A stretch of 64,000 bases of DNA from Lentilactobacillus buchneri (GTDB taxonomy: Bacteria > Bacillota > Bacilli > Lactobacillales > Lactobacillaceae). The stretch's first letter is position 1. Each line of letters starts with the position of its first letter. Below the pieces are notes generated by a model, which saw only the letters and a program-made list of their open reading frames with translations, was not told the origin of the DNA and did not search any database. The stretch is taken from NCBI RefSeq assembly GCF_018314255.1, contig NZ_CP073066.1, positions 2,418,001-2,482,000 on the forward strand, written 5' to 3'. Position numbers and translations under genes: made by a program. Of this stretch, positions 245-52,767 are shown one piece after another.

Positions 245-682
245 GTGCAGACGGCTATCGAGTTGCTGAGGGCAAACTCCCAAGGACTTCGCGACCGGAA
301 ATCGCCATTTCATCTGTCTGCAAGTGCGATGGTCTTTGAAGGAGGTAAGGGGATCTTTATCCGGCACCCATACCTGCATACAATTCTATTGCCTGCCGGT
401 CACGTTGAGCCAAACGAAATGCCGATTGATTGTGCCATCAGAGAATTTACCGAAGAGACCGGTTTGGTTTTAAAAACTAGTCCCAATTCGTTAATCGACG
501 TCAACATCATTGATATTCCGGCTAATCCGCAAAAAGGCGAGGGTGCTCATCAACATCTGGACTTCCGCTACTGGTTCTCCTCGATTGAACCACATACCAA
601 ATATCATGCTGAGCTGCCAATATTTCAGTTGACCAGGCAGGAGGCCCCGGTGGAGTTTCAACCATATTTTACACTAATATGA
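245..682 (+). CDS. NUDIX hydrolase
   Basis: The protein carries a complete NUDIX box: Gly of GHVEPNE, then REFTEETGL, fitting GX5EX7REUXEEXGU. Such enzymes use Mg to hydrolyse nucleoside diphosphates linked to another moiety; the substrate cannot be read from the sequence. The first usual start is the GTG at 245 (145 aa), but it has no good Shine-Dalgarno site. The same frame is open back to 164 and reads like a real N-terminus; an AAGGAAG at 154-160 stands 9 bases before an in-frame ATC at 170. The true start may therefore be ATC (170 aa). It follows folP directly and may share its transcript. Confidence 0.8.
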   Translation: MQTAIELLRANSQGLRDRKSPFHLSASAMVFEGGKGIFIRHPYLHTILLPAGHVEPNEMPIDCAIREFTEETGLVLKTSPNSLIDVNIIDIPANPQKGEGAHQHLDFRYWFSSIEPHTKYHAELPIFQLTRQEAPVEFQPYFTLI

Positions 683-802
683 TTGGCAAAAATAAGAGAT
701 CATGATTATTGCCATATACAATTAGCCGATTCAAATCAAGGAAAAGTTTCTGTAAAACCGGTTATTGGTATATACAATTATTTAAAAAGAAGGTTCAACA
801 CA

Positions 803-1237
803 ATGGACAATCAAATTATCACCAGAAAAATGCAGGCAGAAGATTATCCAAATGCTTATGCATTGTGGCAACAAGTTCCCGGCATGAATCTGCGGGAATT
901 TGACGATAGTTTTGAAGAAATCAGTCGATTATTGCGATTCAATCCCAATTTCTGTTTTGTAGCGGAGACCAAGACTGACAAACAGATCATCGGCAGCATT
1001 CTGGGTGCAACTGATGGTCGGCGCGGGACGATTTATCATTTGGCAGTTGCTCCGGGTTATCAGAATCAAGGTTTGGGAACTCAACTGGTCAATAAAGTGA
1101 TTGAACAGCTCCAAGCTGTCGGTATTCATAAAATCTTTGTCAATGTCATGAAAGATAATCTTGCAGGCCAATCATTTTGGCAGCATCTAAAATTTGTTAA
1201 ACGAAGTGACGTGATTCGTTTTAATAAAATTATTTAG
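803..1237 (+). CDS. GNAT family N-acetyltransferase
   Basis: A 144-residue single GNAT domain. The acetyl-CoA pyrophosphate-binding motif is visible as VAPGYQNQGLGTQL (Q-x-x-G-x-G type), preceded by the usual beta strand (IYHLAV) and followed by NLAGQSFWQHLKF, the typical C-terminal motif in which the tip of the substrate domain closes. The substrate is unknown. The open frame extends back to 683, but the ATG at 803 has an AAGAAGG at the right distance, and the upstream 40 codons look non-coding. It is the last + strand gene before the dif site. Confidence 0.85.
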   Translation: MDNQIITRKMQAEDYPNAYALWQQVPGMNLREFDDSFEEISRLLRFNPNFCFVAETKTDKQIIGSILGATDGRRGTIYHLAVAPGYQNQGLGTQLVNKVIEQLQAVGIHKIFVNVMKDNLAGQSFWQHLKFVKRSDVIRFNKII

Positions 1238-1288
1238 ATACGTATCAGAGAAGCGGGGTGCAGACTCATTTTTCTTGATACGGATTCT

Positions 1289-1316
1289 ACTTTACATAAT
1301 ATATATTATACGAAGT
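1289..1316. other. dif chromosome dimer resolution site (Xer recombination site)
   Basis: A 28-bp site built as 11-bp arm, 6-bp centre TATATA, 11-bp arm. Read on the - strand the arms are ACTTCGTATAA and TTATGTAAAGT. From memory of the Firmicutes consensus (arms ACTTYCTATAA and TTATGTWAACT around TATATA), 26 of 28 positions fit. XerC/XerD-type recombinases resolve dimers here at the replication terminus. Position supports it: genes to the left are on +, and genes to the right are almost all on -, as expected where two replication forks meet. It lies between convergent genes, in non-coding DNA. Confidence 0.85.
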
Positions 1317-1327
1317 AGAGAAAAGGT

Positions 1328-1384
1328 AAAAAGAACCAGCTACCAAAGCCAACACTCTCGGCAATGGTAACTGGTTCTTTACTT
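1328..1384. terminator. Bidirectional Rho-independent terminator
   Basis: Inverted repeat AAAGAACCAG(C)TACC (1330-1344) with GGTAACTGGTTCTTT (1366-1380), loop of about 21 bases, flanked by A-rich sequence on one side and TTTACTTT on the other. It sits between the convergent GNAT and LicD genes and can serve both. Confidence 0.7.
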
Positions 1385-1433
1385 TAATTTCGTGAACAAT
1401 TAACCAACGGCTTCCTCCAGAGGATTTCCGGAT

Positions 1434-2243
1434 TCAACTTGAGTGTTCGTTTGGTAAATTATCCACTCGTACTTTTAAAACGTGACGCTGAATGCGTTTA
1501 TTTAACGGTGGCAGTTTCATATAGTCACCGTACAAGCGTGTTAAGTATGCATCATAATCTGCTAGGACTGGCACCCGTAAATTTTCAAAGGCCATTGGGA
1601 TTAAATGATGGATCTCTGTCGGCTTGATTAATTCTTTTCCGTACTGATACGGTGATGACATGTTAATCAACGATAATTCCGAGTGACCGTTATATTGGGT
1701 CATTGTGCTGAGTCGAATATCGTATAGCTCACTCAAATTATAATCCGCATACTTAGATTGTGTGATACTTTGCTGATACAGGTCAGGATAAAATCGCTTT
1801 CGAATCTCTTCTAACAGCATTGCCAATTTTGCTTGCTGTTTTTCCTGTTGCGGACGTTTATTTGGCATTCGATCGAACGGAAATACATCAATAAAGATGC
1901 CATTCTTGGCTTTTGTCAACTCACGGCCATGTTCCAAGATCCGCGTGCCATCAGCCATCACTTTAGCGAAATCGTATTCGTATTGTGGATCAAGGCGATT
2001 CTCTTCAACGAAGTATCCTCGATGTGACAACTCTGCCGGTGCAACTTGTAGAAACCTTTCAAAATCAGTGCGCGGCAAACCAATATCAATATCGTCGTCC
2101 CATGGAATAAAGCCGTGATGACGCACGGCACCAATTGCTGAACCACCAGTTAGAAAATATTCCAGATGGTATTTAGAATTGATTGCTGCCACATTTGCCA
2201 GAATACCCAGTTGAACTTGATGAATTAATTTTAAATCAACCAT
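1434..2243 (-). CDS. LicD family phosphotransferase-like protein
   Basis: A 269-residue protein of the LicD/nucleotidyltransferase-fold family. The signature is clear near the N-terminus: GGSAIGAVRHHGFIPWDDDID (residues 33-53), where the Gly-Gly-Ser and the Asp cluster form the nucleotide and metal site. Family members transfer phosphocholine or similar groups to teichoic acids or capsular sugars; the actual substrate is not evident. There is no signal peptide. The start has a strong TAAGGAGG. It is a monocistron lying exactly between the dif site and a second dif-like palindrome, which is unusual and raises the chance that it was acquired. Confidence 0.8.
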   Translation of the reverse strand: MVDLKLIHQVQLGILANVAAINSKYHLEYFLTGGSAIGAVRHHGFIPWDDDIDIGLPRTDFERFLQVAPAELSHRGYFVEENRLDPQYEYDFAKVMADGTRILEHGRELTKAKNGIFIDVFPFDRMPNKRPQQEKQQAKLAMLLEEIRKRFYPDLYQQSITQSKYADYNLSELYDIRLSTMTQYNGHSELSLINMSSPYQYGKELIKPTEIHHLIPMAFENLRVPVLADYDAYLTRLYGDYMKLPPLNKRIQRHVLKVRVDNLPNEHSS

Positions 2244-2359
2244 ATTTAGAACCTCCTTAATCAGAAATCCGATCTCATATCTAAACCTCTTTCAAATTGG
2301 ATTGTTCACTTATTAATATTAATCGATTCCAACATTGGGTCAATTAATATGCTTATTTA

Positions 2360-2368
2360 TGATATACT
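2360..2368 (+). promoter_or_regulatory. Extended -10 promoter of xerS
   Basis: TGATATACT is an extended -10 (TG-N-TATACT). No convincing -35 lies at 17 bases. The expected transcription start falls inside the palindrome that begins at 2369, so a protein bound there would block initiation. Confidence 0.5.
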
Positions 2369-2400
2369 TAACTTAATAAAATACAGATTTTATTAAGTTA
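2369..2400. repeat. Perfect 14-bp inverted repeat, dif-like, in the xerS promoter
   Basis: TAACTTAATAAAAT (2369-2382), spacer ACAG, then ATTTTATTAAGTTA (2387-2400); every arm base pairs. Read as 11-6-11 the core is ACTTAATAAAA, TACAGA, TTTTATTAAGT, which shares 20 of 28 positions with the dif site at 1289-1316. It could be a Xer recombination site (streptococcal xerS genes sit beside difSL) or an operator for xerS. No T-run follows, so it is not a terminator. Confidence 0.7.
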
Positions 2401-2478
2401 TACGCCAAAAAATAAACAGCCCCACCAAATTTACTGCGATTTGCTGGGATATGATTAACTGAATTAAGGAGCTTAAAA

Positions 2479-3576
2479 ATGAAATCATCTCAATATATTC
2501 AACACAATCAACAGCTGGTTCAAACCCTGCCAACTTATATTAATGAATATTATCTTGACAAATCAACGGTTCCATTATCCCCCGCCACGCTATATCAGTA
2601 TCTAAATGAGTTTTACCGCTTCTTCACTTGGATGATCGACGTTGGGATTACTGACGTGAAAACTGTCAAAGAAATTCCACTCTCCGCGCTGGAACACTTC
2701 AAAAAACAGGATATGGAACTGTATAAGTCTTACCTGCTGAACCGTGGCAAGCAAACGGCTTCCCATCCGCAAGCACCAATTTCTCATCGGACAGTCAATC
2801 GTTCCCTGAACGCGCTCTCAGCCTTATTCCGATACTTATCGGAGGAAAATGAAACTGCCGATGGTGAGCCTTATTTTTACCGGAATGTGATGAAGAAAAT
2901 TGCCTTGGTTCCCGACAGCGAAACCTATCAAACCCGTGCCAACAACATTAAGGATCAACTCATGTTGGGTGACGCGGATGTGAAATACATTGAATTCATC
3001 CAGAATGACTATCCCAAGACACTGACCAATAAACGAACGCTGTCATTATATCAACGCGATCGTGAACGTGACGTGGCAATCAATGCGCTGATGCTTGGCA
3101 CTGGCATTCGGGTGTCCGAGCTGACCAATGCAAATGTCTCTGATTTAAATTTGAGCAAAGCGGCAATTGTCGTCCGGCGAAAAGGCGGCAAGTACGATTC
3201 CGTGCCCATTGCCAGCTGGGTGCTTCCCTATCTGGCAACCTATTTAAACGTCCGTAAGCAACGGTATTTGGCCACCAAGACTACCCCTGCCCTCTTTTTG
3301 ACGAAAGGGGCAAGCCAACCCAGAAGAATTTCCACCGCGACTGTTGAACTATTGGTGGCGAAATACTCCCAAGTTTTCAACCACGTGCGGATTACACCCC
3401 ACAAGTTACGGCATACATTGGCTTCGAAGCTCTATTTGGAAACCAACAATGAGCACTTGGTGGCCACTCAGCTTGGCCAGAGTTCAACCAATGCGACTGG
3501 CTTATACACGCACATCATTGACACCAAGCAACGCCAAGCCCTTGATAAACTTCATCGTGACAAACAGCGTCACTAA
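2479..3576 (+). CDS. xerS: XerS-type tyrosine recombinase
   Basis: A 365-residue tyrosine recombinase. N-terminal SAM-like DNA-binding domain to about 175, catalytic domain after that. Catalytic residues are visible: R211 (TGIRVSEL), K235/K238 (RKGGK), H308 and R311 (HKLRH), and the nucleophile Y343 (GLYTHI). The motif usually written LGHSS is LGQSS here, so the second His is Gln334. Length and segments such as GEPYFYRNVMKK and RERDVAINALMLGTGIRVSE match XerS, the single Xer recombinase of streptococci and lactococci, better than XerC/D. The start has AAGGAG. It is a + strand monocistron close to dif, although this chromosome also encodes a XerC-like protein. Confidence 0.85.
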   Translation: MKSSQYIQHNQQLVQTLPTYINEYYLDKSTVPLSPATLYQYLNEFYRFFTWMIDVGITDVKTVKEIPLSALEHFKKQDMELYKSYLLNRGKQTASHPQAPISHRTVNRSLNALSALFRYLSEENETADGEPYFYRNVMKKIALVPDSETYQTRANNIKDQLMLGDADVKYIEFIQNDYPKTLTNKRTLSLYQRDRERDVAINALMLGTGIRVSELTNANVSDLNLSKAAIVVRRKGGKYDSVPIASWVLPYLATYLNVRKQRYLATKTTPALFLTKGASQPRRISTATVELLVAKYSQVFNHVRITPHKLRHTLASKLYLETNNEHLVATQLGQSSTNATGLYTHIIDTKQRQALDKLHRDKQRH

Positions 3577-3608
3577 AAAAATTCGTGGGTAGATTGCCAC
3601 AAAATTCC

Positions 3609-4766
3609 TCAGCGATTTGTTTTTTGATCCACAGCTGACCCCTCAACTGATTGAGTTGATTTTACAGCTTTCTGATAGGCAGACCACATTTTTGATTGAA
3701 CTTTCGAAAATGTCATCTGATCAAATTCACTGGAGTGGATCCATTTACCCGGAAAATAGCTTAAATCAATATCTTCCGCTATTTGGCCTTCCAGTAACTT
3801 AATTTTCCATTGCTGATGGGTAAAGGTGTGAACAACCGTTGGCGTAGATACTGGATGCAACGCGACACTTAGTTGGTAATCGGTCTTTAGTCGGGTTTCG
3901 ATTATGTCAATTAACGTTGATTCTGTCGCCAGTTGGTCATCAGTTAAATTTTTGCGGTCAAATAACGGAAACATCCAAAAATTGGCCAGAATGCCATGAC
4001 TCGGGCGTTTTTCAAATAAGTACCCCGCCTTGGAATGGATGACCACTCCAAAGTAATCGTGGCGAACCGGCCGCTTCTTTTTGGTCTTCACTGGGTAATG
4101 GTCTTCAATCCCATCCAGATATGACTGGTTGAAATCCTTGACCGGTGATTGGCTGGTATCATAATTGGTGGCTGTCATGTAGCTGGCACCCAAATCCATA
4201 ATTGCTTGATTAAAGTCGCCTGGTCGATCCTTTGAAACGATTGGGTTGATTATTTTTTCAAATACCTGACGAGTGTGTGGTTTAGCAACATCATCGTCGA
4301 TTTCTAACAGCCTGGCAAAAACGCGAAAGGCATTTCCATCCACTGCCGCCACTGGTTGGCCAAAAGCAATACTGGCAATGGCACCGGCCGTATAGGGCCC
4401 GATACCGCTCAATTCCTGAAGCTCTTTTGCAGTCGTTGGCCATTGGCCCTGATAATCGAAAACAATCTGTTGAGCCGCCTTTTGAAGGTTCCTGGCCCGA
4501 GAATAGTAGCCCAGTCCTTCCCAAGCTTTCATCAGCTTGTCCTCCGGGGCTGCAGCCAGATCTTCAATCGTTGGAAATTCGTTCATAAACCGTAAATAAT
4601 ACGGAATGACTGTTTCCACCTGAGTTTGCTGAAGCATAATTTCTGACACCCACACATGGTAAGGATCCTGATCCTGCCGCCATGGCAAATCCCGCTTATT
4701 TTGGTCATACCAGGCTAGTAGCGTCTCCTGAAATGCTTTGATTGTCTTATTTGACCATTTGATCAT
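3609..4766 (-). CDS. mutY: Adenine DNA glycosylase MutY, clusterless type
   Basis: Removes adenine mispaired with 8-oxoguanine. HhH-GPD domain with E42 (SEIMLQQTQV), the hairpin LSGIGPYTAG and D143 (AVDGNAFRVF), then a C-terminal NUDIX-like 8-oxoG reading domain (about 236-370, FWMFPLF motif). The four Cys that bind the [4Fe-4S] cluster in most MutY proteins are M197, T204, S207 and N213 here, and I see no cysteine in the whole 385-residue protein. Cluster-free MutY is described in lactobacilli. The start uses AAGGAG. The gene converges with xerS with only 32 bases between the stops. Confidence 0.93.
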   Translation of the reverse strand: MIKWSNKTIKAFQETLLAWYDQNKRDLPWRQDQDPYHVWVSEIMLQQTQVETVIPYYLRFMNEFPTIEDLAAAPEDKLMKAWEGLGYYSRARNLQKAAQQIVFDYQGQWPTTAKELQELSGIGPYTAGAIASIAFGQPVAAVDGNAFRVFARLLEIDDDVAKPHTRQVFEKIINPIVSKDRPGDFNQAIMDLGASYMTATNYDTSQSPVKDFNQSYLDGIEDHYPVKTKKKRPVRHDYFGVVIHSKAGYLFEKRPSHGILANFWMFPLFDRKNLTDDQLATESTLIDIIETRLKTDYQLSVALHPVSTPTVVHTFTHQQWKIKLLEGQIAEDIDLSYFPGKWIHSSEFDQMTFSKVQSKMWSAYQKAVKSTQSVEGSAVDQKTNR

Positions 4767-16170: not shown

Positions 16171-17115
16171 TTAGTTTGATTTTAATGAATCATTATTTCG
16201 AGGAAAATACTTTTTATAATCATTCATTAAATGTGATTTGGTAACGTGTGTGTAGATTTGAGTTGTCGACAGGCTGCTGTGTCCCAGCAACTCTTGAACC
16301 GACCGCATATCGGCACCATTATTGAGCATTTCGGTCGCAAACGTGTGTCGCAGCATGTGGGGATGAATCTTCGTCGTCAGACTACTTTGTTTGACGATTT
16401 GATCCATCAGATATTCGATGCCCCGACTTGTCAGCGGTCGGCCGTAATGATTCACAAATAAAAATGGATGGTCTTGATGGTACTTGGCCATGATTGGGCT
16501 TCTGGCGTCGCTGAGATAAGTTTCAATCGCCTCTTGAGCATATTCCCCAAAGGGCACGTATCTTTGCTTGTTGCCCTTCCCAGTGACTAAGATGGTTCGG
16601 TTGTCCAAATCGATGTCATTGAGCTGAATTCCGGCGCACTCGCTGACCCGAATGCCAGTCGCATATAAAGTTTCCAGAACAGCCGTATCGCGCAATCCCA
16701 GTTGGTGATTGGGATTTTGTCTGGCTCCCTGAAAAAGCGCCCGCATCTCATTTTGATACAAAAATCTGGGCAAACGCCGATGATTGCTCTTCAAGTGGAC
16801 ATATTCGAATGGATTGTTGGCGATCACAGTATTCTTCACCAGGAAAGCATAGAACGACTTTAATGCCGACACCTTTTGGGCGATGGAATTCCTGGCGTAC
16901 TTTCGCTCGTAAAGATCGCTCAAAAATGCTTCAACATCAAACGAGTCCACTTGGGTCAATGGTTTGCGTTCACTGGGAATTTCGGCCAGAAAGCGGGTGA
17001 ATTCGGCAATGGCCTGCTGATAAGCCTGGATGGTATCAGTAGAATAGTGACGGTCACTCTGTAAATACTTCAGAAACCATTGAATATTTTTTTGATCTTC
17101 ATCTGATTCAGCCAT
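16171..17115 (-). CDS. xerC: Tyrosine recombinase XerC (CodV)
   Basis: 314 residues: N-terminal core-binding domain to about 110, then the catalytic domain with R in [12 protein letters not shown] in GKGNKQR, HMLRH and the LGHSS...IYTHV nucleophile Tyr, all intact. It should act with XerD at dif (1289-1316); xerD is not in the window. The ATG at 17115 has GAAGGTGAT at good distance; an ATG eleven codons earlier has only AGGAC too close. First gene of xerC-hslV-hslU. Confidence 0.93.
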
Positions 17116-17339
17116 AACTATCACCTTCAACGATGTAATCGTGTTCATGTCCTAATATCTATGATAGCAAATAAACGCCGTTTGTGCGCAGTTTGCTATG
17201 AAATTAACCAAAACTAAATCCGATCATAATCATCGAATAAGCGTCATTTTACCGACCTGATTAGCAGTCATCAATCGATTGTGCTAGTCTTAACCAGAAC
17301 TTAAGCATTGTGGTAGCCTGGAACCTAAAAACGAGAATA

Positions 17340-52729: not shown

Positions 52730-52767
52730 ACAAAAAAATAGATTTACACATGTGTAAATCTATTTTA
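52730..52767 (-). terminator. Terminator at the nusB stop codon
   Basis: Perfect palindrome with 16-bp arms and no loop bases (52735-52750 and 52751-52766), followed on - by TTTTTTT. The nusB TAG sits inside it. It could also bind a protein ahead of folD. Confidence 0.75.

Follow-up and report, generated by a model that had tools for sequence, protein, structure and literature searches.

The replication terminus of a Lentilactobacillus chromosome probably carries two dimer-resolution systems. In the arrangement that we propose from genome sequences, dif would be recombined by XerC and XerD under the control of FtsK, and a further recombinase, XerS, would act on an 11-6-11 site of its own that is a relative of difSL. 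The stretch of Lentilactobacillus buchneri DNA analysed here (64,000 nucleotides, hereafter the window) contains both sites. What stands out is that dif and XerCD, both intact, have next to them a candidate XerS site that is symmetric and shaped like dif.

A canonical dif site at the replication terminus

The dif site occupies positions 1289-1316 of the window and reads ACTTCGTATAATATATATTATGTAAAGT on the minus strand, with an 11-6-11 layout. Following the usual arrangement of dif, we take 1316-1306 (ACTTCGTATAA) to be the XerC half-site and 1299-1289 (TTATGTAAAGT) the XerD half-site, separated by the centre TATATA (1305-1300). The original prediction had named this segment a near-consensus dif, and the site is present as described. 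At up to three mismatches it is the sole match in the 2,537,205-bp genome, so that no better dif was found elsewhere (a reversed-pattern control gave none), and the sole match in the window, where none of 100 shuffles contained one. It differs at 1 of 28 positions from ACTTCGTATAATATATATTATGTAAACT, a comparison dif derived from the sites of relatives, and exact copies of the 28-mer are present elsewhere in the family. The data support a canonical XerCD dif at the terminus, in itself a routine feature. The last plus-strand gene before it encodes a GNAT-like acetyltransferase (803-1237; family matches below cut-off). Between dif and the XerS site lies a minus-strand LicD-like gene (1434-2243), a name that originates with the original prediction; its best family match, a cholinephosphotransferase model, is below cut-off, and when 23 other loci were compared it was matched only in L. 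parakefiri, L. parabuchneri and L. hilgardii. An inverted repeat at 1331-1379 between these convergent genes, read by eye, is probably a two-way terminator. An Rfam search of 600-3700 returned nothing at the gathering threshold.

The position of dif on the chromosome was assessed on the main contig C1 (2,508,572 bp), where dif lies at 2,419,289 and dnaA at 1,247,701-1,249,020. The two are 1.17 Mb apart one way and 1.34 Mb the other, which puts dif 83 kb off the exact antipode. GC skew, followed in samples totalling about 510 kb (20% of C1; contiguous over 2398-2508 kb), has a single sign on each arm. All 20 ten-kb samples taken between 1259 and 2390 kb are positive, as is the 20-kb flank at 2398-2418 kb; the window taken whole, two stretches at 2482-2508 kb and all 20 samples from 1 to 1206 kb are negative. 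The opposite sign change falls between the samples on either side of dnaA. Over the contiguous 2398-2508 kb, cumulative skew peaks at 2,416,429, which is 2.9 kb from dif. Coding strands agree with the predicted switch from plus to minus: open reading frames of at least 120 aa cover 14,226 bp on the plus strand and 2,109 bp on the minus strand in the 20 kb left of the window, and 2,742 bp and 52,860 bp, respectively, in the window itself. Over the first 30 kb, to the right of dif, the only plus-strand frames of at least 100 aa that were kept are xerS and one of 217 aa. The motif GAAGAAG, a lactococcal FtsK guide, is oriented toward dif on both arms (53 versus 20 on the left, 59 versus 24 on the right), a bias that may merely track gene strand. 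A local rearrangement could be invoked for the strand switch, given the displacement from the dnaA antipode, the positive skew of some 2-kb windows right of dif and the sample at 2380-2390 kb, in which minus-strand coding exceeds plus-strand coding and skew is just +0.011; the uniform sign of the samples along both arms makes this explanation scarcely credible. Uniqueness of dif, skew, strand switch, distance to dnaA and the presence of XerC, XerD and FtsK-gamma all agree with the claim that replication forks converge here, and place dif at the replication terminus.

Xer recombinases and FtsK

The genes for the classical system are intact. xerC lies in the window (16171-17148, minus strand; 325 aa, 357.6 bits against a cut-off of 335.15) and xerD outside it (C1:2350076-2350945; 390.9 bits, cut-off 329.6). 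FtsK-gamma has two matches over cut-off, C1:1983833-1984012 and C1:65359-65541, in separate open frames of 789 and 727 aa, each of which might serve one Xer system. The unique 28-bp 11-6-11 site at a skew shift, with XerC, XerD and FtsK-gamma encoded, is as in Bacillus subtilis and Escherichia coli; the window differs from these in that another recombinase, together with a candidate site for it, stands within 1.1 kb.

This second recombinase, a member of the family for which Le Bourgeois 2007 is said to be the original paper, is encoded by xerS (2479-3576, plus strand; 365 aa), which reaches 435 bits (XerS cut-off 267) and starts 1,163 bp right of dif. The original prediction had placed a XerS gene within 1.2 kb of dif and counted it toward the terminus. 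The location and the identity stand; the use made of them does not, because XerS has its own candidate site and dif goes with XerD, so that a nearby XerS is no evidence for its acting on dif. The catalytic positions are R211, K235, H308, R311, Q334 and Y343. XerS and the genes around it assign the window to Lentilactobacillus; the closest named relative among the best 80 of 431 loci is from L. parakefiri (91%), and for this one pair a dN/dS of 0.055 (dS 0.91) indicates strong purifying selection on xerS. At the catalytic His/Trp position (residue 334 here), Gln is found in 58 of 59 lactobacillus XerS proteins, the exception being L059, and His in 19/19 of the streptococcal type. This replacement might mean altered activity and counts against two working systems.

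A candidate XerS site upstream of xerS

A search for repeats revealed a perfect 14-4-14 inverted repeat at 2369-2400, just upstream of xerS, that is absent from the original prediction. Its 28-bp core, 2371-2398 on the plus strand, has arms of 11 and a centre of 6 (ACTTAATAAAA-TACAGA-TTTTATTAAGT), ends 80 bp before the xerS start and is present in a single copy in the genome at up to three mismatches. Perfect repeats with arms of at least 13 and gaps of 4-8 bp number two in the window, the other beginning at 52735, and none in 30 window shuffles. The repeat at 52735 is a second near-perfect 32-bp palindrome, AAAATAGATTTACACATGTGTAAATCTATTTT (52735-52766). We read 2371-2398 as very probably the site of XerS itself, and the distribution of such sites across the family bears on this reading.

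Among 201 genomes of the family, XerS scored over cut-off in 59 and not in 142. Of the 59, 58 were examined (57 loci plus the window; G043, whose xerS is cut by a contig end, was omitted) for TAAAA-N6-TTTTA in the 1 kb upstream of xerS, a minimum of 9 complementary pairs out of 11 being required. Such a site was found in 35/58 loci, versus 4 of 1160 shuffles. The 23 loci in which it was not found in that interval speak against the two-system proposal. In eight of them a site lies farther off (5.6-16 kb in G107, G131, G154, G173 and G190; 1.5-7.5 kb in G005, G097 and G146) and in three the repeat is weak or shifted (G012, G028, G119), leaving 12/58 where no site was found (G020, G041, G045, G071, G079, G103, G122, G124, G166, G183, G196, G200). 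These twelve include six of the nine XerS-only genomes of genus g6, in which XerS should need a site most, again a point against the proposal. Genome-wide, the pattern is present in 34/59 genomes with XerS (in 33 of the 34 at most 20 kb from xerS) versus 13/142 without; a reversed control matched in 22/201.

The 45 distinct 28-mers have 37 different centres. Changes on both sides are seen at arm pairs 1, 2, 4 and 6, and pair 3 is T:A throughout although this was not imposed; the complementarity of the set is inflated because sites were selected for 9 of 11 pairs, with five imposed. As the dyad is conserved and the centre variable, 2371-2398 appears recombination-site-like. Two exact forms of the XerS site had no match in viral contigs, and there is thus no sign of phages using those two forms.

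Among the closest known systems is difSL/XerS of streptococci and lactococci. In 19/19 top-scoring XerS loci of family f4, which we take to be streptococci because they have difSL and group with named Streptococcaceae in the XerS tree, ATCTTTCCGAAAAACTATAATTTTCTTGAAAAAT or a near copy stands 59-69 bp before xerS, measured by its right half; the twentieth locus compared, L135 from a family-f1 lactobacillus, is without a site of this type. Some lactobacilli have the difSL core AAAACTATAATTTT at the same place, for example G091 with TCATTAAAACTATAATTTTAATGA. Shared with difSL/XerS are thus the XerS ortholog, an inverted-repeat site directly upstream of xerS at the terminus, half-sites ending in AAAA / TTTT and, in some lactobacilli, the CTATAA centre. 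The window has TACAGA instead, a mismatch that weighs against the proposed kinship. Its site is also a symmetric 11-6-11, whereas difSL is described as an asymmetric 31-bp site with a long central region in PMC5357621. Moreover, the window genome keeps XerC, XerD and dif, and so is not a single-recombinase system, and its XerS has Gln rather than His in the active site.

Pairing of dif with the XerS site

dif was seen around 36 of the 58 XerS loci, many of which are covered to only 1.5 kb upstream: in 35 it lies upstream of xerS, at 492-1268 bp, and in one (G119) downstream. Together with G103, where dif is 15 kb from xerS, G119 shows that pairing is not universal, which counts against the two-system proposal. 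A second sample, the best 80 of 431 named loci, partly from the same species, gave both sites in 61; one or both are missing in the stretch covered in the other 19, some of these stretches being short. The order is dif, site, xerS in 61/61, the XerS site having been sought only upstream of xerS and dif everywhere, and the spacing between the two sites is 397-1168 bp (median 814). In ten of these loci the site is separated from xerS by 1.9-8.3 kb, and in one by 421 bp; dif is still 510-1157 bp from the site. The ten are L. hilgardii (where the interval between site and xerS includes masked N), six Secundilactobacillus, Companilactobacillus furfuricola and zhongbaensis, and Levilactobacillus namurensis. 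The DNA between dif and the XerS site was aligned for the window and 24 of the 61 two-site loci. It aligns across species among the window, L. parakefiri, L. parabuchneri and L. hilgardii. Comparison across genera gave no more than two short matches, of 73 and 24 bp, and the data therefore do not support an insertion precisely at dif that brought its spacer along.

XerS with and without the classical system

With dif scored at up to two mismatches and XerD over cut-off, 44 of the 59 genomes with XerS have both, 13 have neither and two are discordant (the fragmented G043 has dif only, G196 XerD only). In some lineages, then, XerS occurs where the classical pair has been lost, in most it occurs alongside that pair, and it seems able to work alone, judging from this distribution. 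Of the nine g6 genomes sampled, all have XerS, none has a dif match or XerD over cut-off, and each has one weaker XerC/XerD-like match. In G123 and G147, two genomes of genus g8 (the Bombilactobacillus group), XerS does not reach its cut-off, and neither a dif match nor, at E 1e-40, a match to XerC/XerD was found; they are possibly without any known dimer-resolution system. Two members of the window's own genus with no XerS over cut-off (G047, G149) have dif, and the XerS module is absent from the 10 kb examined.

The neighbourhood of xerS also varies. Among the best 80 of 431 named loci, 54 allowed ParC, LysR, PpaC and MsrA/B to be scored. These neighbours lie beyond xerS, away from dif, in 11 Lentilactobacillus, three Bombilactobacillus, three Latilactobacillus and Dellaglioa (for Dellaglioa and two Bombilactobacillus loci, where no dif was seen, the side is relative to xerS only), and on the dif side in 24 Levilactobacillus, seven Secundilactobacillus, two Companilactobacillus, L. 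kribbianus, one uncultured MAG and Lactobacillus sp. HBUAS51381. The XerS module therefore occurs on either side of dif. In the XerS tree, Companilactobacillus is nested twice among Levilactobacillus (once at 86/73, once inside a 99/98 fork), and L. kribbianus is placed beside the Levilactobacillus/Companilactobacillus group. Judging by this tree, XerS has moved between genera. The dif types appear not to have followed: the Companilactobacillus loci keep dif sites that end in AACCT, and in L. kribbianus (L179) XerS and its site are of the Levilactobacillus type and the dif next to them is of the Lentilactobacillus type. We infer from these nestings and the retained dif types that xerS and its site can be transferred without dif, and regard L179 as a candidate for transfer of the whole module.

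Discussion

How would two systems operate at one terminus? An odd crossover fuses the sister chromosomes, and FtsK would then pump DNA toward the strand switch. There XerC and XerD would recombine dif at 1289-1316, under FtsK, or XerS would act on the symmetric 11-6-11 site at 2371-2398; a crossover at either site would restore monomers. Recombination by XerS at this site, a drive by FtsK and activity of both systems in the same cell are the conditional parts of the model.

Two other accounts of XerS have to be weighed against this one. XerS might be a further recombinase for dif itself, the inverted repeat being only a promoter operator. The short distance from the repeat to the xerS start in the window, its place within 1 kb upstream of xerS in 35/58 loci and its outer bases (ACTT...AAGT), which resemble those of dif, are compatible with such a role. 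However, where DNA separates the repeat from xerS, the repeat stays near dif, away from the gene that it would control; a dif match is missing in 14/59 genomes with XerS; and streptococcal XerS uses a separate site adjacent to its gene, according to PMC5357621. We consider action on dif very unlikely.

A less remote, though still improbable, alternative is that XerS and its site are a stranded mobile element or a selfish recombination module close to dif that takes no part in resolving dimers wherever XerC and XerD remain. A patchy occurrence (59/201 genomes), transfer between genera and a position that, judged by the conserved neighbours, can be on one side of dif or the other are what such an element would display. 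It fits poorly with the purifying selection measured in one pair, with the joint absence of dif and XerD from 13 genomes that have XerS and with the lack of an exact match to two site patterns in viral contigs; the genes between site and xerS also look ordinary by eye in the loci inspected (translations only). We thus favour two dimer-resolution systems, each with its own site.

More tentatively, and with odds that we would place somewhat against it, the model can be extended to the family. Many lactobacilli would have two independent systems with sites 0.4-1.2 kb apart, and XerS with its site would be a transferable replacement kit that settles repeatedly beside the dif of the recipient, persists alongside it and later permits the joint loss of XerD and dif. 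Since two crossovers would remake the dimer, sites kept so close together may serve to exclude one another at a single FtsK synapse.

Coexistence of XerC, XerD and XerS has a precedent in Lactobacillus helveticus DPC 4571, whose xerS lies near the skew shift; Kono 2011 (PMC3025954) found neither dif nor a XerS site in that genome and considers the coexistence a possible evolutionary intermediate. Here, in another genus, both sites have been located. Among the matches listed in our literature search, no title or abstract described a lactobacillus XerS site. The candidate site offers an answer to the gap stated in Kono 2011 (PMC3025954), the lack of a XerS site. It opens to experiment the questions of how a single chromosome could use two resolution systems even though an even number of crossovers undoes the job, and how one essential recombination system may be replaced by another.
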